Under the pieces are notes generated by a model. It searched no databases and was not told the DNA's origin. It was given only the letters and a program-made list of their open reading frames with translations. DNA of 54,026 bases from an uncultured Erysipelotrichaceae bacterium (GTDB taxonomy: Bacteria > Bacillota_I > Bacilli_A > RFN20 > CAG-826). The DNA lies in NCBI GenBank assembly GCA_902797795.1, contig CADBUF010000027.1:1-54026 (forward strand), written 5' to 3'. Each line of letters opens with the position of its first letter. The first letter of the stretch is position 1. This document shows positions 9,297-53,899 of this stretch, one piece after another. The position numbers and the translations under genes were made by a program.

Positions 9297-10226
9297 ATGG
9301 TAGAGGTTTCAATTATTGTTCCAGCTTATAACGCTGAGAAATTTATCCAACAAACAATTGATTCTTTATTGAACCAGTCTTTTAAAAACTGTGAATTCGT
9401 TTTTGTTAACGATGGATCAGAAGACAATACATTAAAAATTCTTGAAGAGAATAAGAATAAGGACGCTAGAATTGTCATTGTTAATACCGATAATCTTGGC
9501 ATATCTCACGCTCGCAACGCAGGAATAGAAGAAGCCAAAGGTAAATACATTCTTTTCTTAGATGCCGATGATATTTTGATAAGCGATGCTTTAGAAGTTA
9601 TGATTAGCGCAATTAAAGAAAACAAGGCTGATGTTGTTATTGGAAAATATATTACCTTTTCTAATGCTAATTCTTTAGTCTTCCCAAAGGATGAAGTGTT
9701 AAATAGTGTTGTTCTAGATAAGTTTGAAATGCAAAAGCTTCTTTCCGAATGCAAAAAGATTGAAAACCACGTTTGGGGAAAACTATTTAAAAAGACTATA
9801 TTCAACAATTTCAGATTCAATGATAATTACCGTATTTGGGAAGATGTGAAAGAAATGTACAAAGTAATTGATCTCTGTAGTATTGGTGTTTTGCTTAATA
9901 AAACAATCGTGATGTATAGAGTGAATGAATTATCTTTGTCAAAACAATTAAGCATAGAGAAAATAAATGAATTTTGTATTGCCCAAGCTAACAAAGCTGA
10001 TTTTTATCTTACAGCCTATCCCGAATTAGCAAGATACCATTGTGAATCAATGTTTCAATGTGCGGCTGAAGTTGTGACGAGAAGATTAGAAAAAAAAGTT
10101 GATTACTATAAACATTTTTTAAAAACATATAAGAAAGTAACTACAAGGTCAGGGTTTAAAAATAAAATTAAATATTTTATTATTAAATACAAATTCTTAA
10201 ATAGATTATTATTGAAAACAAAATGA
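9297..10226 (+). CDS. glycosyltransferase family 2
   Basis: 309 residues. GT2 signature from the first residues: 'VSIIVPAYNAEKFIQQTIDSLLNQ', 'CEFVFVNDGSEDNTLKIL', 'NLGISHARNAGIEEAKGKYILFLDADD' with the catalytic DXD. The C-terminal part is helical and basic. Ends in a 4-nt ATGA overlap with the downstream fusion gene (10223-10226), which suggests translational coupling. EpsH/EpsJ-like EPS enzyme; sugar unknown. Confidence 0.9.
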   Translation: MVEVSIIVPAYNAEKFIQQTIDSLLNQSFKNCEFVFVNDGSEDNTLKILEENKNKDARIVIVNTDNLGISHARNAGIEEAKGKYILFLDADDILISDALEVMISAIKENKADVVIGKYITFSNANSLVFPKDEVLNSVVLDKFEMQKLLSECKKIENHVWGKLFKKTIFNNFRFNDNYRIWEDVKEMYKVIDLCSIGVLLNKTIVMYRVNELSLSKQLSIEKINEFCIAQANKADFYLTAYPELARYHCESMFQCAAEVVTRRLEKKVDYYKHFLKTYKKVTTRSGFKNKIKYFIIKYKFLNRLLLKTK

Positions 10227-13200
10227 AAAAGATATCACTAAATAACGAGAGCAGCAATATCAAAATAGGGGTTATTTTATCTCTATTGTCTTTTGTTGTT
10301 TCCATGGTTGTGAATGTCTTTTTTATTCGTTTTATTAATAGACCTGATATTGCTGGGCAATCACAATATGGATTGTATACATTCTCAGCATCAATGACCT
10401 CTATGCTCCTTGCTTTGTCTTTTGGTATGAATAGCAGTTATATACGTTTTGCTACAATTGCCAAGAAAGAAAATGGTGAGGAAGGACTTAAAAAGATTAA
10501 CGGATCTTTCGCATTGCTTTTTATTGTCTCGTCTATTATTGCTGCAATATTAGGCGTGTTAATGATATTAGGCTTCCATTTTGGATTAATAGGATCAAAT
10601 TATGAGGGACCTAAAAGAATAATTATTGTTTCGTGTTTAAGTGTATCGGTGATAAATGTGGTTGTGTCGCTTATTTCAAACATTTTTACTTTATACACAA
10701 ATTACAACATGCGTTTTATTTGGGCTAGATCACTCACAATAACTACGTCAATATTAACTCCTCTTTTTACGTGTATCATAATTTATTTTAATCACAACAT
10801 TGTTACTTATGTTTGTGTTGAACTAGCAGTAAATGCATTAGCCTTGTTGGTTAATATGCTGTTCTGCATTAAATCACTTAATTACAAAGTTAAAATTTCG
10901 CTTCATAAGAGCGACTTTCACATTCTTAAAAGTATTATTGTTTTCACCTTCTTTATTTTCTTAGTTACTGTTGTTACCGAACTAACATCAAGCACACCGA
11001 AGGTTTTGCTTGGATTATTTCCTAATTCAACTGGTGATAGTGAAATTACTGTGGCTTATTATCAACTTGCCGCTACTTTTATTGGATCAATAGCGGTTGC
11101 ATCTTCTGCGGTTTCTTCAACATATATTCCACTTGTAAATCGCCATGTGGCATATGGAAGCAATGATGATATTAACCGATTATTTTTGAAGTCTACCAAA
11201 AGTATGATCGTCGCCTATGCTTTAGTTATGGGTGGTTTTATAGCGTGTGGAAGAGAATTTGTCGTAATTTGGCAGGGTAATTATTACGGAAACACTAAGT
11301 TAATTTATTATTTGGCTTGTGCCTTGTCTCTTATTAGCTTTGTTCCTTCTACTTTTGGCATAACCAGCGAAGTCCAAAGAGCAAAAAATAAGCATCATTT
11401 TAGATCGCTTGTCCTTCTAATAGGTTTTTTAGTTAACTTTTTAGTTAGTCTTATAATACTTATCTTATTGCCTAATTTTGTTAACCCAAGCGATCCGAAC
11501 TACTATGTCTATCAAGTAATCGCCTGTGCTATAGGATTCGCAATTGGAAATGTCGTTAACGCGGTAGCGATGTCCATATATAATCAAAAAGTCGTAAAAC
11601 TTGACATGTTTAGCTACTACAAGACTGTTTTGTTTTACTTGTTAATAGTTGGCATATCTTTTGGCTTTGTTTATCTGGCTTTCATGATACTCCCATTCAA
11701 CTTGAATATTATTGTCGCTATGATTGCTAAAGGCGTTCTCTTTGTTGTGGTCTTTGTTTCTTTGGTTTATCTACTCGATAGAAGATTCATCAAAGGCATA
11801 TTCAAAAAAGAAGAAATACAAATTTCGGCCGAAAAAACTTTTAAAGCCAACATTGATCAAATTGATATCAATAAAAAAATATTCGTTTTTAAAGATTTTT
11901 ATAAAGCGTTAAGACAAATTGATTTTTCAAAAAAAGAATATTCTATTTTTGATTCCCCATTAATGAAGGAATTGAAAGATTATCACGATTCTAACGGAAT
12001 GAAATTTGTTTTGCTTATTACTAAAGAAATAAGCGTTAGAAAATTACCAAAATCTATTTGTGTGGAGATAAGTGAAAACTCCGAATGGCTATCTGTTGCC
12101 TTTTCTTCCGGCAAACATTATCCTTATTCGTTTGTTGATGCACCATTCATCACTAATGATTTTGGAAATTTTGTTAATAAGTTCAGAAAACATAATTGTA
12201 GATTAGAAAGAATCGTTTTTCCTGAATTCGAGGCCAAAGAAACCCAAATTGGCTATTTCAAAAGATATTACGATTTTAGGATTTCTGGCATTGCAGAATT
12301 TGATATATTGAGTGGTTCTAAAGGAGTCAGCGTTTCTAATAACTTACTTTTATTTAGTTGTGCAAAGGCAATAGATGGTGAACAAAATTCTTCATTCTAT
12401 TATTTTGAATCAACAAATTTAAGTGTACTTAATAACTTTGTTAGCGATAATAATCCAACAATAGATGATGTTTTAAAAGATGTATTTATGGATAAAAAAT
12501 ATCCTGATTTTTATGGCAAGAGAATTGCAGTAATAAATACTTATAATGGTTTGTCTACTGGTAATCTTGCTAAACAAATAATGAAAGCTTCCAAAGAAGT
12601 TGGTTTAAAAACAAAACTCTATTATGGACGATTACGTGATGATAGTGATATGCAGTCGAATTACTTTGGCGCTAGTAAATTTGTTAATTTAATCAATAAC
12701 GTTTACGTCAAACTTTCCGGATGTATAGGACACGCTCATTATTTTGAAACGAAGAAATTAATAAGAATGCTAAATGATTATAATCCTGACATAATTCATC
12801 TTCATAATATTGCGGGTAATTGTCTTAACTATGGTCTCCTTTTTAATTACCTCAAAGACAAGAAGGTAGTTGTTACTATGCATGATTGCTTTTGGTTAAC
12901 AGGAAGATGTTCGCATTTCACTTATTCGGAGAAAGAGTGTGAAGAATGGAAAAACGGATGTAGAAAATGTCGCCATCTTGATTTCTACATGCAAACCTAC
13001 CTATTTGATAGGGCTTCGGATTTATACAAAGAGAAAAGAAGATTTATCAATGATTGTAAACATTTAAAACTCATCTGCATTTCTAATTGGCAAAAATCAT
13101 TCTTTGATATAAGTGGCATTCCTGAGAACAAAGTTAAACTTATTTATAATGGAATCGAATCAAAGCCACAAAAGACAATTGTATATAATCAAGAAGTTAA

Positions 13201-13696
13201 GAAATTGATATTTGTTTCTTCCTATTTAACAAAAGACAAAGGCATTGAAGAAATTAATAAACTTGCTGAAACACTTGATGAAAGTAAATACCGTATTGAA
13301 GTTATTGGACAGCTAAACAAAAAAACATGGCTTTCAAATAAAATAATTTATAGCGGCTCTCTTTCAAATGACGAAGTGCTTGAGCGAGTCGCGAATTCGG
13401 ATCTATTTGTTTACCCAACTCACGCTGACACATTGCCAACAGTGTTGATAGAATCTCTTATGGTAGGCACACCTATAGTTTCTTATGATGTCGGAGGTTG
13501 TTCTGATATCATTAGGGAATTTGGAAAAGTTGTTAGATATGGTGATTTTGGATCACTTAAGTCTGCTATAGAAGATTTTGATCCAAGTTCTTTTGATAGA
13601 GAAAAAATATCATATGAAACTCGTAAGAGGTTTGATGTGAGTATTATGAATAAAGAATACATTCAATTATATGATGAGGCGCTTAAAGATGAGTGA
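10223..13696 (+). CDS. Wzx-type flippase fused to a GT4 glycosyltransferase
   Basis: 1157 residues, roughly double a normal flippase. Residues 1 to about 523 form a multi-TM polysaccharide exporter of the MOP superfamily ('FVVSMVVNVFFIRFINR', 'YGLYTFSASMTSMLL', 'SFGMNSSYIRFA'). About 524-765 is a soluble region I cannot assign. From about 765 a GT4 enzyme begins ('RIAVINTYNGLSTGNLAKQI'), with 'IHLHNIAGNCLNYG', 'VVTMHDCFWLTGRCSHF', Cys-rich 'CRKCRHLDFY', and the E-x7-E-like region 'THADTLPTVLIESLMVG'. The frame is continuous with no stop. The fusion would tether a glycosyltransferase to the translocase of its own product on the cytoplasmic face (inference). Confidence 0.88.
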   Translation: MKKISLNNESSNIKIGVILSLLSFVVSMVVNVFFIRFINRPDIAGQSQYGLYTFSASMTSMLLALSFGMNSSYIRFATIAKKENGEEGLKKINGSFALLFIVSSIIAAILGVLMILGFHFGLIGSNYEGPKRIIIVSCLSVSVINVVVSLISNIFTLYTNYNMRFIWARSLTITTSILTPLFTCIIIYFNHNIVTYVCVELAVNALALLVNMLFCIKSLNYKVKISLHKSDFHILKSIIVFTFFIFLVTVVTELTSSTPKVLLGLFPNSTGDSEITVAYYQLAATFIGSIAVASSAVSSTYIPLVNRHVAYGSNDDINRLFLKSTKSMIVAYALVMGGFIACGREFVVIWQGNYYGNTKLIYYLACALSLISFVPSTFGITSEVQRAKNKHHFRSLVLLIGFLVNFLVSLIILILLPNFVNPSDPNYYVYQVIACAIGFAIGNVVNAVAMSIYNQKVVKLDMFSYYKTVLFYLLIVGISFGFVYLAFMILPFNLNIIVAMIAKGVLFVVVFVSLVYLLDRRFIKGIFKKEEIQISAEKTFKANIDQIDINKKIFVFKDFYKALRQIDFSKKEYSIFDSPLMKELKDYHDSNGMKFVLLITKEISVRKLPKSICVEISENSEWLSVAFSSGKHYPYSFVDAPFITNDFGNFVNKFRKHNCRLERIVFPEFEAKETQIGYFKRYYDFRISGIAEFDILSGSKGVSVSNNLLLFSCAKAIDGEQNSSFYYFESTNLSVLNNFVSDNNPTIDDVLKDVFMDKKYPDFYGKRIAVINTYNGLSTGNLAKQIMKASKEVGLKTKLYYGRLRDDSDMQSNYFGASKFVNLINNVYVKLSGCIGHAHYFETKKLIRMLNDYNPDIIHLHNIAGNCLNYGLLFNYLKDKKVVVTMHDCFWLTGRCSHFTYSEKECEEWKNGCRKCRHLDFYMQTYLFDRASDLYKEKRRFINDCKHLKLICISNWQKSFFDISGIPENKVKLIYNGIESKPQKTIVYNQEVKKLIFVSSYLTKDKGIEEINKLAETLDESKYRIEVIGQLNKKTWLSNKIIYSGSLSNDEVLERVANSDLFVYPTHADTLPTVLIESLMVGTPIVSYDVGGCSDIIREFGKVVRYGDFGSLKSAIEDFDPSSFDREKISYETRKRFDVSIMNKEYIQLYDEALKDE

Positions 13697-41310: not shown

Positions 41311-42246
41311 ATGGTAAAAAAACTAAGCAAATTAAGATTTCTAATAAGAAATAAAACCCTTTTAAAAACACTTGTTCATTCATCTAAGATAAAAAACATT
41401 GATTGCAACACGATAAATGGAACAAACCTTAGAGGAAAGTATCATTTTAATTATAAATTTGACTGTACCAGGCCAATTACTTTTAATGAAATAATTTGTT
41501 GGCTGAAGTTTAATTATAAAAACAATCTTTGGAAAAAATGTGCTGACAAGCTAGGATCCAAAGACTTTTTGCTAGAAAACGGTTTTGGAAAGTATGTTGT
41601 TAAAACCTACAAGATTTATCATTCTTCGAAAGATATTGATCTTGACGAGCTTCCAAACAAGTTTGTTTTAAAAACAAACCACGATAGTGGAACGGTTTTT
41701 GTTTGTGAGAAGGGCAAAACAAATTTTAATGAAGTTTTTTCTAAATTAGATGAATCTATAAAAACAAAATATAGCTCAAGATTAGGTGAATGGGTATATG
41801 AAGATATAGTCCCGCTAATTTTTGCAGAAGAATTTTTAGAAACCAAAAATGATATTATCGATTATAAATTGTTTTGCTTTAACGGAAAATTTGAATGGGG
41901 TTATACAGTTCAAAATAGGCAAGTTGACTCCAGATCCTCTTTGTTTGAAAAAAACTTCGAGTTCCAGAATGTTGATTATATATTTTTAAGACCAAGAAAG
42001 AAAGATCTACCCCCTAAACCAGATTGTTATGATGAAATGATTAATGTAGCAGAAGAAATAAGCAAGATATTAGATTTCGTTCGTGTTGATTTTTATGACA
42101 CTATTCATGGTCCGAAAATTGGTGAGTTAACTTTTTTCTCGATGGCTGGTTTTGGTCGCTTTACCAAAAAACAATACGATTTTAAATTTGGAAAATGTTT
42201 TGAGAGAACCAATCTTTTTAGACTAATTAATTCCAAAAAGGGTTAA
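41311..42246 (+). CDS. TupA-like ATP-grasp protein
   Basis: 311 residues. Same family as 2726 and 42273: 'RPITFNEIICWLKFNYK', 'DKLGSKDFLLENGFGKYVV', ATP-binding 'NKFVLKTNHDSGTVFVCEKG', 'FAEEFLETKND...DYKLFCFNG' and the metal-site end 'VRVDFYDTIHGPKIGELTFFSMAGFGRF'. Cytoplasmic ligase-type enzyme probably modifying a surface glycan or its precursor. The first gene after the defence island, it has its own near-leaderless promoter. Confidence 0.82.
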   Translation: MVKKLSKLRFLIRNKTLLKTLVHSSKIKNIDCNTINGTNLRGKYHFNYKFDCTRPITFNEIICWLKFNYKNNLWKKCADKLGSKDFLLENGFGKYVVKTYKIYHSSKDIDLDELPNKFVLKTNHDSGTVFVCEKGKTNFNEVFSKLDESIKTKYSSRLGEWVYEDIVPLIFAEEFLETKNDIIDYKLFCFNGKFEWGYTVQNRQVDSRSSLFEKNFEFQNVDYIFLRPRKKDLPPKPDCYDEMINVAEEISKILDFVRVDFYDTIHGPKIGELTFFSMAGFGRFTKKQYDFKFGKCFERTNLFRLINSKKG

Positions 42247-42272: not shown

Positions 42273-43259
42273 ATGTATTTATCTAAAATTATTAAGATTA
42301 TATGCCCATCTTTATATTTCAAAATCCATTTAGGAAAGTTCGAAAAGGATTTTTCTAGTGTTGAAAACAAAGAAGAATTTGTTAAGAAAAAGTATTTAAG
42401 CAGTTTTGGATATGAACTAAATCTTGATAATCCAGAAACTTTCTATGAAAAAATTAATTATTTAAAATTGTTTTATGATGAACCAAATCCTGAAATACTC
42501 GTAGATAAGGTGCTTGTCAAAGAGTATCTAAAAGCTAAAGGATATGATTGCTACGTTTCTAAACTGATTGCTTCTTTTGATTCTGCTAATGACTTTCGAT
42601 TGTCCATCAAAAACATTGGAAATAAATTCCGATGCTTTGTGGTTAAAACGAACCATACTAGCGGTGATGTATTTTTCTATGAGAATGGAAAGTGGAGAGA
42701 CAAAAAGGGGCATAAAACTAGCAAAAGATATGTATTTGCCTGCTTAAAATATATGCTCAACTTTAATTATTATCATTTAGCCCTTGAAAAGGTATATTTG
42801 AATATCAAACCAAAAATATTTATAGAAGAGTACATCCCATCTATGAATAATCTTGGGTTGGATGAATATAAATTTTTTGTAAATAATGGCGATATCAAAC
42901 TTTTGAACGTTGTTTACGGAAGACAAAATAAGGGAAAAATTAAAGAAGCATTTACTACACCTGATTTGAAAGTTTTGCCTGTCAATCAAGGCAACGAGAT
43001 TATTAAACAAAGCGAAATCAAAAGACCACCTTGCTTTGATGATATGGTTTCATTTTGCAAAAATACAGTTGCTGATAGACCTCTGATAAGGGTTGATTTG
43101 ATGACAGATGGCAAAACATTTAGATTTTGTGAATTCACTTTTTATGATTGTGGTGGCATGAACATTTTTTACCCACTCGAATATAATAAAATTATTGGTA
43201 GTTATTTTGATATTGGTAAGTGCTTATTGAAATCTAATAAGACCATTTTTAAAAGTTAA
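42273..43259 (+). CDS. TupA-like ATP-grasp protein
   Basis: 328 residues, 26 nt after the preceding paralogue. Family features: 'LNLDNPETFYEKINYLKLFYDEPNPEILVDKVLVKEYL', 'FVVKTNHTSGDVFFYENG', 'IFIEEYIPSM...DEYKFFVNNG' and 'IRVDLMTDGKTFRFCEFTFYDCGGM'. The glycan substrate is unknown. Its sequence differs enough from the neighbour to suggest distinct acceptors rather than a recent duplication. Two ATP-grasp ligases in tandem are consistent with sequential addition of two groups (inference). Confidence 0.82.
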   Translation: MYLSKIIKIICPSLYFKIHLGKFEKDFSSVENKEEFVKKKYLSSFGYELNLDNPETFYEKINYLKLFYDEPNPEILVDKVLVKEYLKAKGYDCYVSKLIASFDSANDFRLSIKNIGNKFRCFVVKTNHTSGDVFFYENGKWRDKKGHKTSKRYVFACLKYMLNFNYYHLALEKVYLNIKPKIFIEEYIPSMNNLGLDEYKFFVNNGDIKLLNVVYGRQNKGKIKEAFTTPDLKVLPVNQGNEIIKQSEIKRPPCFDDMVSFCKNTVADRPLIRVDLMTDGKTFRFCEFTFYDCGGMNIFYPLEYNKIIGSYFDIGKCLLKSNKTIFKS

Positions 43260-43319: not shown

Positions 43320-45041
43320 ATGGCTAACAAAAAATCATTTATTAAATGGATTATGCTTGGTTTGGCAGTTTTAACAAACGGAATTACAATTGCTTATTCT
43401 GCTTTGCCCGCTGATTTAACAAACTCATGGACATCAAGTATTGCTAACTTTTTCACGCGCATCGTCAACAATGCTACGAAGAAAGAAGTTACTGTTATCC
43501 CAATGGAAAAGTTGAATGTTTTTCTTTCGCCGAAGGAAAATTATGTGTATAACGATATACTTGGATATAAAAATAATGAAATTCCATTAGGAAGTGCTAA
43601 GCAGATTGAGTATTCTTTTGCTCCGGAAGACACCACTGATAGTTCTGTAAGATTTTATACTGAAGATGCTGACAAAATAACTTTAAGCCAATCCGGAAAT
43701 ACCGTTTCTGTTGTTGGTATGGGTGTTGGTAAGGCTACTGTTTATGCTGAAAACAAATCCTCACACCTTGTTTCATCCTGTGAGGTTGTTGTTACGAAAG
43801 TGGTGGAGCCATTCTCTTTTGACACATCAATTGCCTCAAATGATATTTGCATTAATGAGCAAGGAACTATCCTTATTGATGTTGATGGCGGAGTATTAGG
43901 CCATGGAGAACTTGTTAATAGTAGGTATTATGATAACAGGGAACTCGAATACATATCTTCTGATGAAGAAATTTTCACAATAGATAATTATGGTGTTATA
44001 CATCCAATTTCTACTGGTACTGCTGAGGTTACTGTGAAAAATAAAGCAGGATGTGTAAGAGCCAAAGAAATTAATATTATTCCTGGTGGTGTAAAACCGG
44101 TTTACACATCTTTGGCTATTAGTGGATCAGATGTTTGTTATGAAAACGATATGATTAAAGATCAAAATGATAATAAGCATCATTACCAGCTAACCATTTC
44201 CGATGAAGGCGAGGAACTTAATCCTGAGGATTTCATTTGGGAAAGTTCCAATGATCTTTTAGTAAGAGTTGATAGGCATGGGGTTGTTCGTGGATTTAGA
44301 AAAAGCACCAAAGAAGACGAATGGGCCACAATTACTGCAACATCTAAAATCACTGGTGATTGTGCAACGTTTGATATTTCCGTTAAAGAGCAACTTCCTA
44401 GCTCAATGTATTATTCTGTTAATGTCGGAGAGAATACATCTTGGAATCCAACTGATTTTGTTGCTTGTGTTGGTGACACAATAACTGTATCCATTGGCTA
44501 TGATGTGAGCGTGTCTAACAAACAAATGAATGTTACATCTAGTGATGAGAATGTGATAACAGTCACAAATCAAGGTGACAAAATTATTATCTACGTTAAT
44601 AGTGTAGGTAATGTTACTATCAATTTTTCTTCTGTTATTAATGGTGAACTCAAAGGCACAATAAATTTTGAGTTAATCCAAGCTGGCGCCATTTCTTCTG
44701 ATGAAATCAAAAACGTTGGTAAGAATATTAGAAAAACAGCCGGTCATGCAATGATGTTCGCTATAGCACAAGCTTTTACACTAATCACAATCATTATGTT
44801 TTTGAAGAAAAAGAGTTTATGGGTCTGTGCATCATTTTCTCTATTTTTTGGATTTGTTATGTCTTCAATTTCAGAACTAATACAACATTTTGTTCCTTCT
44901 AGACAAGGAAATTTAATTGATATCCTCATAGATTTTTCGGGTGTTGCTATTGGTGCACTTATAGTTATTGTTATAATTGTTATTCACAATATTATGAAAA
45001 ACAAAAGAATAGAGCATCTTATCCAAGAAGAGAAAAAATAA
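43320..45041 (+). CDS. Big_2 Ig-like repeat protein with C-terminal VanZ domain
   Basis: 573 residues. N-terminal signal/anchor TM (about 9-29, 'WIMLGLAVLTNGITIAYSALP'), then an extracellular region of about 400 residues with bacterial Ig-like (Big_2) repeats: 'ITLSQSGNTVSVVGMGVGKATVYAEN', 'EIFTIDNYGVIHPISTGTAEVTVKN', 'VRVDRHGVVRGF...ATITATSKITG', 'NVITVTNQGDKIIIYVNSVG'. The C-terminus is a VanZ-like four-TM domain ('AGHAMMFAIAQAF', 'SELIQHFVPSRQGNLIDILIDFSGV'). VanZ homologues confer low-level teicoplanin resistance by an unknown mechanism. The fusion may present an adhesion or glycan-binding stalk beside a membrane enzyme. Confidence 0.85.
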   Translation: MANKKSFIKWIMLGLAVLTNGITIAYSALPADLTNSWTSSIANFFTRIVNNATKKEVTVIPMEKLNVFLSPKENYVYNDILGYKNNEIPLGSAKQIEYSFAPEDTTDSSVRFYTEDADKITLSQSGNTVSVVGMGVGKATVYAENKSSHLVSSCEVVVTKVVEPFSFDTSIASNDICINEQGTILIDVDGGVLGHGELVNSRYYDNRELEYISSDEEIFTIDNYGVIHPISTGTAEVTVKNKAGCVRAKEINIIPGGVKPVYTSLAISGSDVCYENDMIKDQNDNKHHYQLTISDEGEELNPEDFIWESSNDLLVRVDRHGVVRGFRKSTKEDEWATITATSKITGDCATFDISVKEQLPSSMYYSVNVGENTSWNPTDFVACVGDTITVSIGYDVSVSNKQMNVTSSDENVITVTNQGDKIIIYVNSVGNVTINFSSVINGELKGTINFELIQAGAISSDEIKNVGKNIRKTAGHAMMFAIAQAFTLITIIMFLKKKSLWVCASFSLFFGFVMSSISELIQHFVPSRQGNLIDILIDFSGVAIGALIVIVIIVIHNIMKNKRIEHLIQEEKK

Positions 45042-45050
45042 TTATTTTTC

Positions 45051-45078
45051 TTGAAAAATATATACCTTCGTTTAGAAT
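45051..45078 (+). promoter_or_regulatory. strong promoter, leaderless type, before the triple-fusion gene
   Basis: TTGAAA (45051-45056), 16 nt, TAGAAT (45073-45078), each 5 of 6 to consensus. ATG 45085 follows after 6 nt, so transcription should start at the start codon. No Shine-Dalgarno site. Confidence 0.65.
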
Positions 45079-45084
45079 ACACGT

Positions 45085-48000
45085 ATGCCTTCAATCGTTA
45101 AAAACAACTCAAGAACAGGAAAATCAACAGTTAATTTATTGACTGGTGTTTTATCACAGCTAGTGATATTGGTTTTAAATTTTGCTGTTAGATATGTCTT
45201 TATTCAAAATATTGGATATGAATATCTTGGTATAAATTCATTATTCACCAGTATCTTAACAGTTTTGTCTGTTGCTGATTTAGGTTTTGGATCTGCGCTT
45301 GGAATCGTTTTGTATTCTTCTCTTAGTAGGAAGAACGAAGAAGAGATTGCAGGATTGATGAACTTCTTCAAAAAAGTTTATTTGATCATAGGTCTTGTTG
45401 TTACTGCTGCTGGTTTAATAACAACCCCGTTTGTGAAATATTTGGTTAATACTAATCAAGATATCCCACATCTATCTTTATATTTTCTTTTGTTCTTATT
45501 GAACACTGTCTCATCGTACTTTATTAGCTATCGTGCCATATTAATTAGAGCCGATCAGAAAAATAGTGTTGTTAATAACGTAACCACAATTGTGAAAGTT
45601 GCAAAAGCTATTCTTGAAGTGCTTGTTTTGGTGCTTATTCCAAAACTATGGGGATTAACCGCAACATATTTCATATATCTTGGTGTTATGGTTCTATCAA
45701 CTTATGCGATTGGCTTTATAACTTCTGTCTATGCCAAAAAGAAATATGCATACGCTTTTAGAAATAAGGTCACTGTTAGTGAAGAGAAGAAAAAAGATAT
45801 TATTTCTACCACAAAAGATTTATTCATATATCGATTGTGCTCGGCATTCTCCTCACCAATTGATAGTATTATTATTTCTCTTTTTGTTGGGACACTGATT
45901 CTTGGTGTTTACAGCAATTATCTTCTTATTTTAACTACTCTTTTGGAGTTTATTTGTTTAATATCGAGAAACGTTATTTCCAGTGTTGGAAACTTTGTTG
46001 TTGAACGACCTTTGCAAGAACAAAAGAAGTTATATTTTGAGATGCAAGTAGTGTACTTTGCTATCATCATCTTTTGTACAATTAACTTTGTTTCTCTTGT
46101 TTCACCATTTATTTCTTTGGTATTTAAGCCAGAAAGCGCATTATCCATTTGGGTTGTTTTCCTTCTTGGCGCAACCTTAATAACAAGATGCATTGGTGAA
46201 TTATTTATTATCTTTAGAGAAACAACAAGAATATATAAGAAAACAAAATATATCTCGTTATTCTATACCGCTATCCACGTGGGTCTATCTTTATTATTTG
46301 GATACTACATGGGTCTAGAAGGAATTTTACTCGGTAATGTTATCGCTTATTTTATTACAAACTTCTGGTTTGAATTGTTTGCCCTTTTTAAATGGTATTT
46401 CAAAGAAAAATCATTAAAAGCTTTTGGCATGTTTTTCTATGTAATCTTATTGACATGCGGTTTATCTGTAGGAATGTATTATCTATCAGAATTTATATAT
46501 GGTTCAGGTGGAGTTGTAAGATTAATTATCACCGCTGGTGTATCACTTTTGGTATCGTCACTGGCTTTGCTTGCACTATACCCTCTAGATGGGTTTAAAT
46601 TTGTTTTTAGAAGAGTTAAAAGAATTGTTTTGTCCTTTTATAACAAAATATCGTTCATCTATAAATCAAAGAAAGTTCAGATTTCTGTCTTAATTGGTTA
46701 CGTTGTAATTTTAGCTGCTTTAGTATTGGCTAGAGATATTTTTGGAGTAAATATTAATAAGTTTATCTTCTTATTTTTGATTATTGCCGCTCTACTCGTT
46801 TTAAATAAGAAAAACGCTATTGCGGTGATAATGTTTACGCTTCCGATATCGCCATCTCTTGCCGAACTATATATTTTAATCCTGTCACTGGCTTATTTGA
46901 TTTTTGCTTCTGCTAAATGTCACAAGATTAAAAACTGGGCAATTATTTTTGCAATACCATTATTAATTTTTGTGCTAGAACTGGTGTTATCTTTTGTGTA
47001 TGGCTATGCCCAATTTAATTTGGCCTTTAGAATTTTTGTCCTGCTTAGTATTCTTGCCATTGTTTTTTATGATAGAAAGATTTTTACCAAATTTCACTTG
47101 ATGTCCTTTGTGGTTGGCGTTCTTTTCTTGCTTGCTGTTCTTTCTATAAATTGGATTGTTCCTGCTATTTATGGCGTGAAACATAGAGGGAAAACGGAGT
47201 GGCTGACATTATCTTTATTATTTAAAGAATGTAGATTTGGGTTTTCAACAGGATCGTGGATTTTAACTAATGCACATATACAAAATCCTTATGTGGATGG
47301 CGTTAGAACAACAGAAAATCCAAACAATATTGGTCTTTTGTCTATTGTTTCTATTGCAACCTTATTCTCAATTTACGGCACATACAGAAGAAAAGGTAAA
47401 ATTTCCATTTTACTAATGATGTCATTATTGGTTGCTTTTGGCATATGGTCGCAGTCAAGAACATTTATTATCATACTTCTTGCTTTTGTCTTGATTATGA
47501 TTTTTGCTCCATTCATCGCAAAAAGAAAGAGTTTATTAGTTACCCTTTTATATTTATCTTTTGCAATAACTGTTGCTTCGATTGTGCTTTTTTCTTCTCC
47601 CGCATTTATAAAAAATATTATTAATAGATTTAGTGAAAAAAGTACTGCAACAGGTGGGGGCCGATTTGAACTTATTGGCGATTATTTTAGATTTATCTTC
47701 TCTGACTGGAGATATGCTTTGTTTGGTGTCGGTTGTTCATCACTCAGGCCTTTATCAGGTATAGAAGTTGTACCACATACTAATTTTGTTCAATTTATTG
47801 GATCATATGGTCTATTAACATTTATTTTCTTTATAACATTCCTAGTATTTTCGTTTATAAAGACAAAAAGAATTAAAATAAGATCTGGGCAGCTTTATTT
47901 ATTATTGCCTGTCTTGTTCACGGTAGGATTTACTTTAACACTTCAATTGTTCTTGCCATCTATTGTTTTGTTATCTTTTATTCCTGGCGTTGGCGCTTTG

Positions 48001-49194
48001 TCTTTCTTAAACAAAGAAATTGACAATGGAAAGAAGATAGAGTATTACCCTGCCTTACCTTCTAAAGTTTCTGAAAATGATACTCTTCGACTCGCTATGT
48101 GCTCAACATCGTTTGGTGGTGGTATAGGCTCTTATATTTCTAATGTATATCCGTTCTTCAAAAAATGTAAGGTTGATGCAACTATTGTTCTTAATCCAAA
48201 TTCACCAGAAAGCGATATAAAAGCCTTTAGTAGAAAAGGTATCAAAAAGATAACATATGCAAAGTCTTCACACAAATTAAAGATAAAAAGGCTAATTGAT
48301 AAATACGATTATTATCTTGATAGTTTTTATGCCATTAGACCAGATGTCGTTTATGTTAATACCTCTTCCTTTGTTAGGGCGTTGGTTCTTATTTTTGCAG
48401 CAATTAAATATAAGGGTGCGAAAATTATTGTTCACTGCCATATTAATTCAGAATTATCTTTTGCGGAAAAAGTTGCCAGATGGTTTATTACATTTGAAAA
48501 AATAGCCTGTTTTGCGTGTTCTAAGGAATCCGGAAAGAGTTTCTTTGGAAAATCATTTTTGGAAAACAAAAACAATCATGATGCTGTTATAACAAACTTC
48601 ATTAACACCGATAAATTCACTTTTAATGAAAAATATAGAGATGAAATTAGAACAAAACTTAATTTCAAAAAGGACGATATTGTTATCGGAAACGTTGGGC
48701 GTTTTGATCCACAAAAGAACCAAAAATTCATTGTCGATGTTATTAGCAAATTGCCACCTAGATTTAAATTAGTTTTAATTGGTGGTGGTGGAGATTTAAA
48801 ACCTGATATCGAAAGGCAGATAGTTGATTTGAAATTACAAAAAAGAATAACTATGATCGATAGCACTGATGAGATTTACAAATATTATAATGCGTTTGAT
48901 TATTTTGCCCTCCCATCTATTAAAGAGGGATTACCATTTGTGTGTGTTGAAGCACAATGTTGTGGCGCGATGAATATTTTGAGTAGCGAACTTTCGGATG
49001 AATTGAAAATGAGCAATATTGTTGTTTTCTTGCCACTAAATGTTGATTCTTGGTGCAAATACTTCTTAGAGTCGAAACCTGTATCGTTTAAAGAGAGGTC
49101 TAAGGCGTACCAAGCAATTATTGATGCTGGATATTCAAATAAGACAACCCCTTACTCAATAATTAATATAATCAAAGAAATTGCGTATGAATAA
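45085..49194 (+). CDS. flippase-polymerase/ligase-GT4 triple fusion
   Basis: 1369 residues in one uninterrupted frame. Residues 1 to about 510: Wzx-type exporter of the MOP superfamily ('LLTGVLSQLVILVLNFAVRYVFI', 'YEYLGINSLFTSILTVLSVADLGFGSALG'). About 526-970: O-antigen ligase/polymerase-like (Wzy_C) membrane domain, with long outer loop, 'GIWSQSRTFIIILLAF', 'TGGGRFELIGDYF' (from 858), 'LFGVGCSS' and 'PHTNFVQFIGSYGLLTF'. About 1000-1369: GT4 glycosyltransferase ('GGGIGSYISNVYPFF', 'IGNVGRFDPQKNQKFIVDVI' at about 1202, E-x7-E 'SIKEGLPFVCVEAQCCG'). Export, polymerisation and sugar addition are thus joined in a single polypeptide. Confidence 0.88.
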   Translation: MPSIVKNNSRTGKSTVNLLTGVLSQLVILVLNFAVRYVFIQNIGYEYLGINSLFTSILTVLSVADLGFGSALGIVLYSSLSRKNEEEIAGLMNFFKKVYLIIGLVVTAAGLITTPFVKYLVNTNQDIPHLSLYFLLFLLNTVSSYFISYRAILIRADQKNSVVNNVTTIVKVAKAILEVLVLVLIPKLWGLTATYFIYLGVMVLSTYAIGFITSVYAKKKYAYAFRNKVTVSEEKKKDIISTTKDLFIYRLCSAFSSPIDSIIISLFVGTLILGVYSNYLLILTTLLEFICLISRNVISSVGNFVVERPLQEQKKLYFEMQVVYFAIIIFCTINFVSLVSPFISLVFKPESALSIWVVFLLGATLITRCIGELFIIFRETTRIYKKTKYISLFYTAIHVGLSLLFGYYMGLEGILLGNVIAYFITNFWFELFALFKWYFKEKSLKAFGMFFYVILLTCGLSVGMYYLSEFIYGSGGVVRLIITAGVSLLVSSLALLALYPLDGFKFVFRRVKRIVLSFYNKISFIYKSKKVQISVLIGYVVILAALVLARDIFGVNINKFIFLFLIIAALLVLNKKNAIAVIMFTLPISPSLAELYILILSLAYLIFASAKCHKIKNWAIIFAIPLLIFVLELVLSFVYGYAQFNLAFRIFVLLSILAIVFYDRKIFTKFHLMSFVVGVLFLLAVLSINWIVPAIYGVKHRGKTEWLTLSLLFKECRFGFSTGSWILTNAHIQNPYVDGVRTTENPNNIGLLSIVSIATLFSIYGTYRRKGKISILLMMSLLVAFGIWSQSRTFIIILLAFVLIMIFAPFIAKRKSLLVTLLYLSFAITVASIVLFSSPAFIKNIINRFSEKSTATGGGRFELIGDYFRFIFSDWRYALFGVGCSSLRPLSGIEVVPHTNFVQFIGSYGLLTFIFFITFLVFSFIKTKRIKIRSGQLYLLLPVLFTVGFTLTLQLFLPSIVLLSFIPGVGALSFLNKEIDNGKKIEYYPALPSKVSENDTLRLAMCSTSFGGGIGSYISNVYPFFKKCKVDATIVLNPNSPESDIKAFSRKGIKKITYAKSSHKLKIKRLIDKYDYYLDSFYAIRPDVVYVNTSSFVRALVLIFAAIKYKGAKIIVHCHINSELSFAEKVARWFITFEKIACFACSKESGKSFFGKSFLENKNNHDAVITNFINTDKFTFNEKYRDEIRTKLNFKKDDIVIGNVGRFDPQKNQKFIVDVISKLPPRFKLVLIGGGGDLKPDIERQIVDLKLQKRITMIDSTDEIYKYYNAFDYFALPSIKEGLPFVCVEAQCCGAMNILSSELSDELKMSNIVVFLPLNVDSWCKYFLESKPVSFKERSKAYQAIIDAGYSNKTTPYSIINIIKEIAYE

Positions 49195-49253: not shown

Positions 49254-49283
49254 ATATTTTGATTGTTATTTTTTAAGAATTGT

Positions 49284-51671
49284 ATGAAAAAAACATTTAT
49301 AGTTTCTTGCTATTTTAAAAAGAATTTTGGATCAGCATTACAGGCTTATGCGACTCAATATTTTTTAGACGAAAACGGAATTGATAATGAAACCATTAAT
49401 GTATCATGTCTAAAAGATTTTTCCAAAGGAAAGAAAAAGTATTATCGTTCACAAATTTTTAATTTTAGTTTTTATAAAGCAAAATTTGGAATGATTAGAT
49501 TACTTTTTAAAAAGAGAATTAATAAAAAACTTAAGTCAGGATTTAGGCTTCGTAATAAAGAATTCTTAAAGTTTCAGAATCGCTATTTTAGACTTACCAA
49601 GCCTTTAAAAAAATATAGTGAATTATCAAAACTTTGTGAAGAAGAAGCGTGCAACGTTGTTGTGGGTAGTGATCAGTTGTGGCTTCCTGTTAATGTTGTT
49701 GCGGATTATTACACATTAAATTTTGTTCCAAACAATATCAATAAAGTTTCTTATGCCACAAGCCTGGGAATTAGTAGCTTGCCAAAAAAATATGAAAGTA
49801 GATACACCAATTTTTTGAACCGCTTTAACAAATTGTCTGTTAGAGAATTATCTGGAAAAAAGATAGTTGAGAGCTTGACTAATAAGGAATGCAAGGTGGT
49901 TTGTGATCCAACCTTTCTTTTAACAAAACAAGATTGGGACAAAATAATTGATGATGGTAGATTTGTTGAAGAAAAATATATCTTTTGTTATTTTCTAGGA
50001 AAAACCAAAGAACACAGACAATTTGCCGAAAATATTAGAAAACTTACTGGATATAAAATTGTATCAATCAATCATTGTGATGAGTTTGTCAAATATGATG
50101 ATAAATATTCTGACTTTGCGCCATATAATGTTGGTCCAAGCGAATGGCTAAACCTTATTAAAAATGCCGAATTTGTTTGCACTGATTCATTCCATGGCAC
50201 TGTCTTTTCTCTATTGTTTAATAAACAATTTTTCTCTTTTAGAAGGTTTGCAAAAAAAACATCGTTCTCTACTAATTCTAGATTAGATACATTGCTCGGC
50301 GTTGTTGGATTGCAGAATAGAATATTTTTGGGTAATGAATCTATTGATGAGATAAGTTCGTTGATTGCCAACATTATAGATTATGGAGAAGTTGACTTAA
50401 AAATTAATTCTTATGTTACTTCGTCTAAACAATTTTTCCTTGATGCATTGACAAAAGATTCTTTTGTTAAACAAAAAGGGATATCTATTTATTCAAAACA
50501 AATGTGTTCTGGCTGTAGCGCGTGCAAATCAATTTGTCCAAAGGATGCGATTGAGATGGTTGCTGATGAGGAAGGTTTTTTATACCCGCGTGTTAATCAA
50601 AATAAATGCATTGATTGTCGTCTATGTATTAATACCTGCCCTATCCTGAATTTAAAAAAGGAAAGCAAAAAAGAACAAAAGGCCTTTTTGATTAGAAATC
50701 TTGATGAGAACGTGCTTCTTGAGAGCACTTCTGGTGGATGTTTTTCTGCTTTAGCAGAATGTGTGTTAAAACAAAATGGTGTTGTTTTTGGTGCCTCTTT
50801 TGATGAGAATTACAAAGTAAGACATAAGTATATTGAAAATATCGATGAGTTAAAGCAGTTTAGAAACAGCAAATATGTTCAAAGCGATTTAAAAGATACT
50901 TTTATTGAAGTTAAAAAATATTTGATTGATAAAAGAATTGTTCTTTATTCTGGAACTCCATGTCAAATAGAGGGATTAAAAGCATATTTATTACATTCTC
51001 GTGTTAATATAGACAATCTTTATCTCGTTGATTTAGTTTGTCATAGTGTTCCATCTCCGCTTGTTTGGGAAAAGTACAAGGAAATTAAGGGACAGGATGG
51101 TTGTATGCCTCATTCGTTTAGAAACAAAGAAAAATATGGGTACGAATATTCGCAAATGTGCTTGCAGAAAGGCGACAAGAAGTTATACGTTGGTGTTGAA
51201 TCAGATCCATACTTTAGAGCATTTCTTAGTGACTTAAGTATTAGACCAGCTTGTGTTGCTTGCAAATTTAAAAAGAGATATCGTGAGTCAGACCTTACAT
51301 TATGGGACTGCTTTACTATTCATAAGTTTGATAAATCGTTAGATGATAATAAAGGCGTGACTAGATGTTTGACACATTCACAAAAAGGACTGTTGTTGAT
51401 TGACAAAATTAAAGATAATTGTCTGATTAAAGAAATTGAACCTGACAAGGCTGTTTGTGACGCAAAGGAATTGGTTAGAAGTGCCAATTGGAATATAAAT
51501 CGTGAACAATTCTTTAAAGATGTTAATGGAATGGAAAGTAATCAGTTATTTAAAAAGTGGTTTCCAATAAATGTTAAAGTTAGAACAATGAAATTTATAC
51601 GTGTAAGTCTTGAAAAGCTTGGCATTTATAGACCGGTAAAACGTTTTGCCAAGCGTATAATAGGTAAATAA
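49284..51671 (+). CDS. polysaccharide pyruvyltransferase fused to FrhB-type iron-sulfur protein
   Basis: 795 residues from ATG 49284 (an in-frame TTG at 49263 lacks support). N-terminal ~390 residues: PS_pyruv_trans/CsaB-like domain ('NFGSALQAYATQYFL', 'NVVVGSDQLW', 'SYATSLGISSLP', 'FVCTDSFHGTVFSLLF'), which adds ketal pyruvate from PEP to a sugar. From about 405: two 4Fe-4S ferredoxin motifs 'CSGCSACKSICPKDAI' and 'CIDCRLCINTCPI', then an FrhB (F420 hydrogenase/dehydrogenase beta) domain ('STSGGCFSALAECVL', 'YSGTPCQIEGLKAYL', 'DLVCHSVPSPLVW', 'CKFKKRYRESDLTLWDCF'). In glycan loci this pair is common as separate genes; substrate of the redox half is unknown. Confidence 0.88.
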   Translation: MKKTFIVSCYFKKNFGSALQAYATQYFLDENGIDNETINVSCLKDFSKGKKKYYRSQIFNFSFYKAKFGMIRLLFKKRINKKLKSGFRLRNKEFLKFQNRYFRLTKPLKKYSELSKLCEEEACNVVVGSDQLWLPVNVVADYYTLNFVPNNINKVSYATSLGISSLPKKYESRYTNFLNRFNKLSVRELSGKKIVESLTNKECKVVCDPTFLLTKQDWDKIIDDGRFVEEKYIFCYFLGKTKEHRQFAENIRKLTGYKIVSINHCDEFVKYDDKYSDFAPYNVGPSEWLNLIKNAEFVCTDSFHGTVFSLLFNKQFFSFRRFAKKTSFSTNSRLDTLLGVVGLQNRIFLGNESIDEISSLIANIIDYGEVDLKINSYVTSSKQFFLDALTKDSFVKQKGISIYSKQMCSGCSACKSICPKDAIEMVADEEGFLYPRVNQNKCIDCRLCINTCPILNLKKESKKEQKAFLIRNLDENVLLESTSGGCFSALAECVLKQNGVVFGASFDENYKVRHKYIENIDELKQFRNSKYVQSDLKDTFIEVKKYLIDKRIVLYSGTPCQIEGLKAYLLHSRVNIDNLYLVDLVCHSVPSPLVWEKYKEIKGQDGCMPHSFRNKEKYGYEYSQMCLQKGDKKLYVGVESDPYFRAFLSDLSIRPACVACKFKKRYRESDLTLWDCFTIHKFDKSLDDNKGVTRCLTHSQKGLLLIDKIKDNCLIKEIEPDKAVCDAKELVRSANWNINREQFFKDVNGMESNQLFKKWFPINVKVRTMKFIRVSLEKLGIYRPVKRFAKRIIGK

Positions 51672-51675
51672 TATT

Positions 51676-52788
51676 ATGAGACGTATTTTGTTTTTTGTTG
51701 ATAGATTACTTAGAGGTGGTATTCAATCATTTTTAAAAGTTGTTTGTTCTAATCTTCCAAAAGATAAATTTGATATTAGCATTTTAGTCCTTGACGACGG
51801 AAAAGATTATTCTGAGCTTGAAAAGGAATTTATTGATGTAGGTGTTAAATTATATAAACTTGATGGAATCTGGTTAACTCATTTTTCTGACTACAAAGAA
51901 TACAAAAATAAATTGGATAACTTCTTTTCTTTGAATCAATTTGACATAGTACACATTAATTCGGGGCCTAAAAATTGTGTGGTTGCAAGATACGCAAAAA
52001 AACATAATGTTAAGAAGATTATCTATCATTCCCATAATACGAACTATCAAACAAAGAACCTTTTAAAGAAGTTATATGGCAATTATCTTAAATTTAAAGT
52101 TAAGAAATATTGCACTCATTATCTTGCGTGCTCATATAAGGCTGCAGAGTGGTTGTTTTTTAAGAAGACTTTAAGATCGAGCAATTTCGAGATTATTCAC
52201 AACCCTATTTCCGTAGACGATTTTGCTTTCAATCAAAATAAAAGAAATGTGGTAAGAAATGAATTTGGTTTGGGCAACGACTTCGTTATAGGCAACATTG
52301 GAAGATTTAGCAGGCAAAAAAACCAATCATTTTTAGTTGAAGTTGTTTCTGAGCTATCAAAAATATACCCTAACGTTAAATTGGCCTTTGTTGGCTGTGG
52401 CGAATTAGAGCAAGAGCTTAAAAAACACACTGAAGAATTACATATTATGGAAAATGTAGTTTTCTTTGGATTTAGAAAAGATGTTGAAACCGTTATTAAT
52501 TCATTTGATTTGTTTGTTTTAACTAGTTTGTATGAAGGATATCCAATCGTATCAATAGAAGCGCAAGCCAATGGTCTTCCATGCTTGATGTCAAACACAA
52601 TTACAGAAGAAGCATTATTGAAAGAAAATAGTAATATGCTAGATTTGAAATCTGGTCCAAAGAATTGGGCTAATTTTATATTGTCTAACTATATCAATAA
52701 GCCGAATAAGCGCATTCCGCCTGAAAACATTAACGAATACGGTTGCGACTATATTGTTAATCAATTAATTGAATTTTATGATCGTTAG
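51676..52788 (+). CDS. glycosyltransferase family 4 (EpsF-like)
   Basis: 370 residues, 4 nt after the fusion gene. GT-B enzyme: 'RILFFVDRLLRGGIQSFLKVV' (glycine loop), 'FDIVHINSGPKNCVVARYAK', 'YHSHNTNYQ', and the donor half 'VIGNIGRFSRQKNQSFLVEVV', 'LAFVGCGELEQELK', E-x7-E 'SLYEGYPIVSIEAQANGLP'. Close in motif pattern to EpsF/CapM-type enzymes and to the GT4 module of the triple fusion at 45085. Donor sugar unknown. Confidence 0.92.
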   Translation: MRRILFFVDRLLRGGIQSFLKVVCSNLPKDKFDISILVLDDGKDYSELEKEFIDVGVKLYKLDGIWLTHFSDYKEYKNKLDNFFSLNQFDIVHINSGPKNCVVARYAKKHNVKKIIYHSHNTNYQTKNLLKKLYGNYLKFKVKKYCTHYLACSYKAAEWLFFKKTLRSSNFEIIHNPISVDDFAFNQNKRNVVRNEFGLGNDFVIGNIGRFSRQKNQSFLVEVVSELSKIYPNVKLAFVGCGELEQELKKHTEELHIMENVVFFGFRKDVETVINSFDLFVLTSLYEGYPIVSIEAQANGLPCLMSNTITEEALLKENSNMLDLKSGPKNWANFILSNYINKPNKRIPPENINEYGCDYIVNQLIEFYDR

Positions 52789-52855
52789 TTGCTCACATCT
52801 GAATAAATAAACTTATTAATTGATTCCAATATCAAAGGGTATGAAGGTAAATCAC

Positions 52856-53899
52856 ATGAACAAAATATTATTTGTAATAGGAGCAACAAGCAGTGGTGGC
52901 GCTGAAAAAAGGGCGATTCTAACTGCCACTATATTAAAAGATAGGTTTGATACAAATGTTTTTGCGCTTCACGGCGAAAAAAGTTCAAACATAGATTTTG
53001 TTTTTAAAAAATCGTACAGAGATTATAAAAAAACAAGCGTAAAAAAAAGAATTAGATCTTTGAGAAAATACATTGATACCTATAATCCGGATACTGTTAT
53101 TTCTTTTATGCCACATATTAATTTGATTACAACTTTTGCTTTGAGACCAAAAAAATATAAAAAAATCAAGCATGTTGTTGCCATGGCACATTACTATTTT
53201 GATTTCAAAAATAGTGTATTTCTAAAATATTCAATTAAAAAAGCTGATGCGGTTTATTATCAGAGCGTTGAGCAAAAAGAGTATTTTGATACCAAACATT
53301 TTAATTTTGTTTTAAGCAATCCGATAAAAATCCCGAAATTAGAAAAGAAGAATTGCAAATATAAATTTATATCTGTGGGTAGACTTGAGCCTCAAAAAGA
53401 TTTTGAATTATTAATTAAATCCTTTTATCACATAACAAAAGAAATTTCAGAGGCTTCTTTAGACATATTTGGAAATGGGTCACAAAAGGATAAATTATTA
53501 TCTTTGATTAGTAATCTAAAACTAGAGTCTAAAGTCACTATTCATGAATATACAAAGGATATAGCGAAAGAATATCAATCACATGATGTGTTTTTGTTTA
53601 CCACTAGAAGAGAAGGATTTCCAAACGTTTTAGCAGAAGCTATGGCAAATGGATTGATTTGCTTCTCAACGATATTTAAAACCGGATGCAAAGAATTGCT
53701 GATTGACAATGAAACAGGATATATTTGTTATTCAAGAGATCCTTTTGATTTTTCTAGTATTGTTGTTAACAAACTTAAAGAGTATGATTCGGCAAAAAAA
53801 GTTGCTGAAAATGGTTATGAACATATATCTTCGGTCTGTGACATAAATGTTTTCAAAGATAAAATAGAAGAAAAAATTAAAACGCTTAATAAAATTTAG
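52856..53899 (+). CDS. glycosyltransferase family 4
   Basis: 347 residues. ATG 52856 is chosen because AAGG (52844-52847) lies 8 nt upstream; starts at 52820 or 52841 add a tail foreign to the family. Motifs: 'KILFVIGATSSGGAEKRAIL' (glycine-rich acceptor loop), 'YNPDTVISFMPHINLITTFAL', 'FISVGRLEPQKDFELLIKSF', 'LDIFGNGSQKDKLLSLI', E-x7-E 'TRREGFPNVLAEAMANGL'. Resembles GalNAc-alpha-GalNAc-type and Cap/WbnE-like enzymes; specificity not predictable. A strong terminator follows about 90 nt later. Confidence 0.92.
   Translation: MNKILFVIGATSSGGAEKRAILTATILKDRFDTNVFALHGEKSSNIDFVFKKSYRDYKKTSVKKRIRSLRKYIDTYNPDTVISFMPHINLITTFALRPKKYKKIKHVVAMAHYYFDFKNSVFLKYSIKKADAVYYQSVEQKEYFDTKHFNFVLSNPIKIPKLEKKNCKYKFISVGRLEPQKDFELLIKSFYHITKEISEASLDIFGNGSQKDKLLSLISNLKLESKVTIHEYTKDIAKEYQSHDVFLFTTRREGFPNVLAEAMANGLICFSTIFKTGCKELLIDNETGYICYSRDPFDFSSIVVNKLKEYDSAKKVAENGYEHISSVCDINVFKDKIEEKIKTLNKI

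Follow-up and report, generated by a model that had tools for sequence, protein, structure and literature searches.

Can the flippase, the polymerase, and a glycosyltransferase of one glycan assembly pathway be parts of a single protein? The question is raised by an open reading frame in a 54,026-nucleotide stretch of DNA from an uncultured Erysipelotrichaceae bacterium of the gut type (GenBank assembly GCA_902797795.1, contig CADBUF010000027.1, positions 1 to 54,026 of the forward strand; the whole stretch is called the window here). An earlier note, made from the letters alone, had read this frame as one chain of Wzx-like, Wzy/WaaL-like, and GT4 modules. Both the single frame and the identities and order of its modules were borne out, the latter by Pfam searches, profile matches to the Protein Data Bank (PDB), and fold comparisons. 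Considering sequence comparisons together with a structural model, we think it probable, at roughly 0.7, that the protein serves an ordinary Wzx/Wzy-dependent surface-polysaccharide pathway in which flippase and polymerase are tethered 1:1 and followed by an exchangeable cytosolic tail enzyme.

One frame and its three modules

The gene and its parts are as follows.

45085 to 49194, + strand: triple-fusion gene, 1369 aa, ATG to TAA without internal stop; homologues in L021 (genome G128) and L002 (genome G011)
45085 to 46599, + strand: Wzx-type (MOP superfamily) flippase module, residues 1-505; by PF01943, PDB profile, fold, and topology
46579 to 46674, + strand: flippase-polymerase junction, residues 499-530; nine lysine or arginine (K/R) residues, a single continuous helix in the model
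46660 to 48018, + strand: Wzy/WaaL-type (O-antigen ligase superfamily) polymerase module, residues 526-978; by PF04932 in homologues, PDB profile, and fold
47458 to 47460, + strand: Arg792, aligned with a conserved WaaL Arg; Lys in G011 and G179
47662 to 47664, + strand: Arg860, aligned with a WaaL Arg; invariant in 17 polymerase homologues
47776 to 47778, + strand: His898, aligned with a WaaL His; invariant in 17 polymerase homologues
48016 to 48090, + strand: polymerase-GT4 junction, residues 978-1002
48091 to 49191, + strand: GT4 glycosyltransferase module, residues 1003-1369; by PF00534, PF13692, and the EX7E motif E1281-X7-E1289

The remaining five reading frames over 45085-49194 hold 42 to 138 stops each, and chance therefore does not account for so long an open frame. 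An assembly artifact or chimera joining separate genes could produce such a frame, and the genome behind the window is indeed a draft of metagenome type in 78 contigs. However, G+C content at third codon positions is uniform over the three modules; the same three modules form one 1380-aa frame, 54% identical overall, in a genome of a second genus (L021, which is G128, CAMYZF010000005.1); and the flippase-polymerase core, with another tail, is present in a third genome, from the window's own genus (L002, which is G011). The Wzx modules of these three fusions form a single clade with full support. Since fusions of the same or a similar kind occur in relatives, we take the triple fusion to be real and, as far as genomes can exclude an artifact, regard one as extremely improbable.

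The modules were searched as separate slices; in Pfam the full-length protein returns the GT4 tail only. The flippase slice passed the curated cutoff of PF01943 (Polysacc_synt; E = 7e-8, 32.6 bits, cutoff 28.2), and the profile of its family matched the MATE structures 5c6o/4lz6 in the PDB at 6.6e-11. Foldseek, run on an AlphaFold2 model of the first two modules, returned MurJ (6nc6/7waw), MATE transporters, and WzxE (9g9p) with E values down to 2e-5; TM-scores by target length were 0.68 to 0.73 for MurJ and 0.69 for WzxE. Hydropathy and K/R counts predict 14 transmembrane helices with both termini in the cytosol, the loops of the cytosolic side carrying 3, 4, 3, 10, 3, 5, 4, and 9 K/R residues and those of the opposite side 0 to 1. 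Residues 1-505 have the MATE-like fold, a helix number within 12 to 14, and the two cytosolic ends of a Wzx flippase of the MOP superfamily, and are predicted to flip undecaprenyl pyrophosphate-linked units.

The profile of the polymerase family matched the ligase WaaL (7tpg, 6e-7) and an oligosaccharyltransferase (9rmk, 1e-7) in the PDB, and homologues match PF04932 (Wzy_C) at 2e-4 (L002) and 9e-7 (L003). The polymerase half of the model, which only five rows of its alignment cover, was matched to WaaL 7tpg by Foldseek with probability 1.00, a TM-score by target length of 0.52, and an E value of 0.03. Arg792, Arg860, and His898 correspond to the Arg/Arg/His of WaaL, which we take to be its active-site residues, with the histidine in a catalytic loop; they constitute the predicted, extracytoplasmic active site of the polymerase. 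Those best PDB matches, an oligosaccharyltransferase and WaaL, would also suit a middle module that is a ligase or oligosaccharyltransferase (WaaL/PglL-like) moving flipped glycans onto an acceptor, and PF04932 spans both activities. Few Wzy structures are available to be matched, however, and the gene clusters of the window and G128 both look Wzx/Wzy-type, with no other polymerase candidate among the examined genes of the window cluster and the G128 stretch (both truncated, by a contig end or by the limits of the region). We consider a ligase unlikely and continue to call the module a polymerase. For the third module, the GT4 slice scored above the cutoffs of both PF00534 (E = 2e-20, 73 bits) and PF13692 (1.5e-16, 61 bits).

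The AlphaFold2 model of residues 1-978 has a mean predicted local distance difference test score (pLDDT) of 88.2 and a predicted TM-score of 0.74; its alignment comprised 49 rows, 12 of which, from distant polymerases, had been wrongly aligned to the flippase half, and a model from a 3-sequence alignment was discarded (pLDDT 44). Because K/R-rich loops mark the cytosolic side (the positive-inside rule), the flippase-polymerase junction, of equal length in all three fusions, is placed in the cytosol. With loops judged by eye, both ends of the polymerase are likewise cytosolic, and the GT4 tail therefore lies on the side that supplies its donor sugars. Topologically, both joins make sense. Between the window and L021, the flippases are 73% identical, the other two modules 43 to 44%, and the linkers 34% and 17%.

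Internal starts might nonetheless yield separate proteins from the frame: the genome is AT rich and makes weak use of Shine-Dalgarno sequences (8 of 33 starts), an in-frame ATG is present at codon 1005, and lone Shine-Dalgarno-like starts occur at codon 506 in G128 alone and at codon 987 in G011 alone. At the two window junctions, however, neither an in-frame start with a Shine-Dalgarno sequence nor a promoter-like site on the coding strand was found, and no start is common to the three genomes, which makes separate products very improbable. The whole frame is preceded by one candidate signal.

45051 to 45078, + strand: candidate promoter TTGAAA-16-TAGAAT, ending 6 nucleotides (nt) 5' of the ATG; the top-scoring site, its total not above chance

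L021 has TATAAT 6 nt 5' of the matching ATG (upstream of 8001), and these −10-like elements 6 nt before the start suggest that the transcripts may be leaderless. The pattern TANNNT stands 5 to 8 nt before 9 of 38 window starts, against a background of 11.8%.

Recurrence and origin of the fusions

In L002, the core is 37% identical to that of the window and GT4 is replaced by an NAD-dependent sugar-nucleotide epimerase, which makes up the last 347 residues (PF01370, 8e-57) and shares 78% identity with epimerases that relatives encode as separate proteins. A GT4 third module, as originally proposed, is thus correct for the window and G128, but the position is exchangeable, as the congener G011 demonstrates. 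In a tree of the polymerase modules, a stand-alone polymerase from G016 falls beside those of the window and L021, and a contig-edge polymerase from G179 beside that of L002. Since the tree is interleaved in this way, a single fusion with later fission and two separate fusions are indistinguishable; the fusion was either re-split once or arose twice. The G179 polymerase may be fused too, because its frame runs open into the contig end. The stand-alone, window-type polymerase of G016 (L071:8431-10335) carries a C-terminal module of about 155 aa and adjoins an unrelated flippase.

The fusion was sought in genome samples from the family (224), order (279), class (296), and phylum (392). Alignment of the core over the 224 family and 279 order genomes yielded only three full fusions (window, L021, and L002), and the close flippase relatives in the family and order are stand-alone proteins of about 500 to 545 aa from genomes of several genera. 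In the class, the full-length flippase matches listed have frames of at most 543 aa, the window (1372) excepted, and one weak partial flippase match among those listed falls within an 803-aa frame; PF04932 polymerase frames there are mostly 390 to 510 aa. Among the frames listed for the phylum, the window alone exceeds 549 aa, the stand-alone flippase relatives being of about 500 aa. Encoded as they are by separate genes, these homologues agree with the premise of the earlier note that export and polymerization are usually the work of separate proteins.

Other flippase-polymerase chains are found within the family. Proteins of about 900 aa with the order reversed, Wzy-Wzx, occur in 14 genomes from 8 genera at 27 to 60% identity (L065:4897-7632 and L129-L141; genomes G022, G090, G006, G003, G012, G024, G201, G109, G186, G181, G063, G015, G030, and G093, the G201 copy being truncated by a contig end). 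The two halves of the G022 protein match PF04932 and PF01943 above cutoff, and among 28 half-length slices of the reversed proteins, 8 match Wzy_C and 11 match Polysacc_synt; comparison of the G022-type flippase and polymerase with the window modules by phmmer gave no match at E < 1e-3. G103 and G104 encode a 949-aa Wzx-Wzy protein (L142:1336-4182 and L143:1423-4269) with a polymerase related to that of the reversed proteins and a flippase of another type, attached at the other side, and G123 encodes a 995-aa Wzx-Wzy protein (L145:1650-4634) with yet another polymerase; both types lack a third module. Flippase-polymerase fusion arose at least four times in the family, in at least four combinations. 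The earlier note knew of no described protein with the domain order of the triple fusion. This held in the open-access literature that we searched, where no Wzx-Wzy fusion was found and broader searches gave no paper with one in its title or summary, but it has to be set beside this recurrence; unnamed database entries of this architecture may also exist. The modules are all members of known families; a single chain with flippase, polymerase, and tail enzyme is, to our knowledge, new.

Fusion also extends to other partners. An acyltransferase (PF01757) precedes the flippase in proteins of 866 to 875 aa in G010, G014, and G016 (L146:1135-3759, L147:1011-3629, and L148:2399-4996); flippase and GT4 are joined in G023 and at 10223-13696 of the window; Wzy-GT4 fusions occur in the window's genus (G013, G001, G006, and G011); the wider class contributes a polymerase-GT4 protein in G424 (assigned by eye); and a polymerase is joined to ATP-grasp in G306. 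The lineage is prone to fusing glycan-assembly proteins. Two long frames are also of note, one of 1386 aa (L144:3624-7781) with an N-terminal part without known identity, then GT4, then a flippase, and one of 980 aa in G105 (L077:2393-5335) with Wzy_C followed by about 500 aa without a Pfam match.

The strongest rival explanation is that such fusions arise by drift, neighboring glycan genes in small AT-rich genomes losing their stops while the modules work as if apart. The many unrelated fusions in the family (pyruvyl transferase-FrhB, acyltransferase-flippase, polymerase-GT4, and GT4-flippase), the swap of the tail for an epimerase, and the poorly conserved linkers all speak for drift. Joining of flippase and polymerase in at least four combinations and in both orders, one of them kept in 14 genomes and 8 genera down to 27% identity, speaks against it, as does the rarity of fusions among the listed matches to the same flippase family in the rest of the class and phylum. 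We regard drift without functional coupling as a serious possibility, though not the probable one.

Gene cluster and proposed role

The fusion gene lies among other glycan genes, and a second fusion is encoded elsewhere in the window.

41311 to 42246, + strand: TupA-like ATP-grasp protein (PF14305)
42273 to 43259, + strand: TupA-like ATP-grasp protein (PF14305)
43320 to 45041, + strand: Big_2 and VanZ-like membrane protein, by Pfam, directly upstream of the fusion
49263 to 51671, + strand: fusion of a polysaccharide pyruvyl transferase with an iron-sulfur protein resembling the F420-hydrogenase beta subunit (PF04230, PF04432)
51676 to 52788, + strand: stand-alone GT4 (PF00534)
52820 to 53899, + strand: stand-alone GT4 (PF00534); the contig ends at 54026
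10223 to 13696, + strand: second fusion, 1157 aa; probable flippase (1-520), a part without identity (521-779), and GT4 (780-1157)

As in a Wzx/Wzy locus, glycosyltransferases are present in the window and G128 clusters and an initiating Bac_transf protein in that of G128; the window cluster is cut by the contig end, and the G128 stretch is likewise bounded by a contig end or region limit. Homologues of the Big_2/VanZ gene lie directly upstream of the fusion in G128 and, in G011, 6.6 kb away on the upstream side; the window and G011 have the gene as a single frame, G128 as two frames (L021:6194-7915). The second fusion belongs to a separate, complete Wzx/Wzy-type cluster with Bac_transf at 2116, an EpsG polymerase, and UDP-galactopyranose mutase. 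A search of the window for RNA families and tRNAs found none.

We propose that the cytosolic GT4 tail would add a sugar, perhaps the last, to an undecaprenyl pyrophosphate-linked repeat unit, that the 14-helix Wzx module would flip the unit, and that the Wzy module, through Arg792/Arg860/His898, would join flipped units into polymer on the outer face. That a single chain fixes stoichiometry, as the earlier note held, follows from its being one chain; the fusion would have flippase and polymerase made in a 1:1 ratio and kept close together, and the tail slot could take any cytosolic enzyme of the pathway that became joined to it, GT4 in the window and G128 and the epimerase in G011.

Several observations weigh against this proposal. 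The window polymerase slice alone does not match PF04932, but 15 of the 17 rows of its alignment do; the Wzy/WaaL superfamily holds ligases as well as polymerases, and sequence does not part the two activities; the linker sequences are weakly conserved (34% and 17%, window versus L021); and the tail may be an epimerase, acting several steps earlier, so that strict step-to-step channeling is not required. Because a GT4 and an epimerase act at different steps, we favor colocalization and coproduction over strict channeling. A fixed position of the modules, which the earlier note also proposed, and direct hand-over from flippase to polymerase are plausible possibilities. A bolder version, which we hold only tentatively, is that the family repeatedly evolved one-chain flippase-polymerases that hand each unit to the polymerase of their own chain, one coupled 1:1 machine whose tail carries the enzyme of the last cytosolic step.

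The conclusion of a 2025 review (PMC12004945) names the stoichiometric interplay and arrangement of flippase, polymerase, and chain-length regulator as open, and natural 1:1 fusions are useful because the stoichiometry of the pathway, according to that review, is still to be described. Single-chain flippase-polymerases would settle the ratio for these species, would offer a covalently locked complex for cryo-electron microscopy and reconstitution, and would be a natural test of how these machines cooperate; their recurrence in both orders is evolutionary evidence for flippase and polymerase acting side by side.

Comparison with known systems

With Wzx/WzxE, TacF, and MurJ of the MOP superfamily, the window flippase shares the MATE-like fold and PF01943, and with MurJ its 14 transmembrane helices, but its C terminus runs on into the polymerase, whereas the known proteins end after the last helix. 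The middle module resembles Wzy polymerases and the WaaL ligase (PF04932) in its profile and fold match to 7tpg and in the aligned Arg/Arg/His, and differs in being fused, with a flippase on its N-terminal side and GT4 or an epimerase on its C-terminal side. The tail shares PF00534/PF13692 and EX7E with the GT4 enzymes of glycan clusters (WbnH and PglJ/PglH-like) and has profile matches to WbnH and PglJ models; unlike them, it is held at the membrane by its fusion to a flippase-polymerase. Among fusions, the reversed Wzy-Wzx proteins of the G022 type likewise combine polymerase and flippase in one chain of about 900 aa, but in the opposite order and without a third module, while the Wzy-GT4 fusions of the window's genus place GT4 after the polymerase as the window does, but lack the flippase and belong to a separate polymerase lineage.

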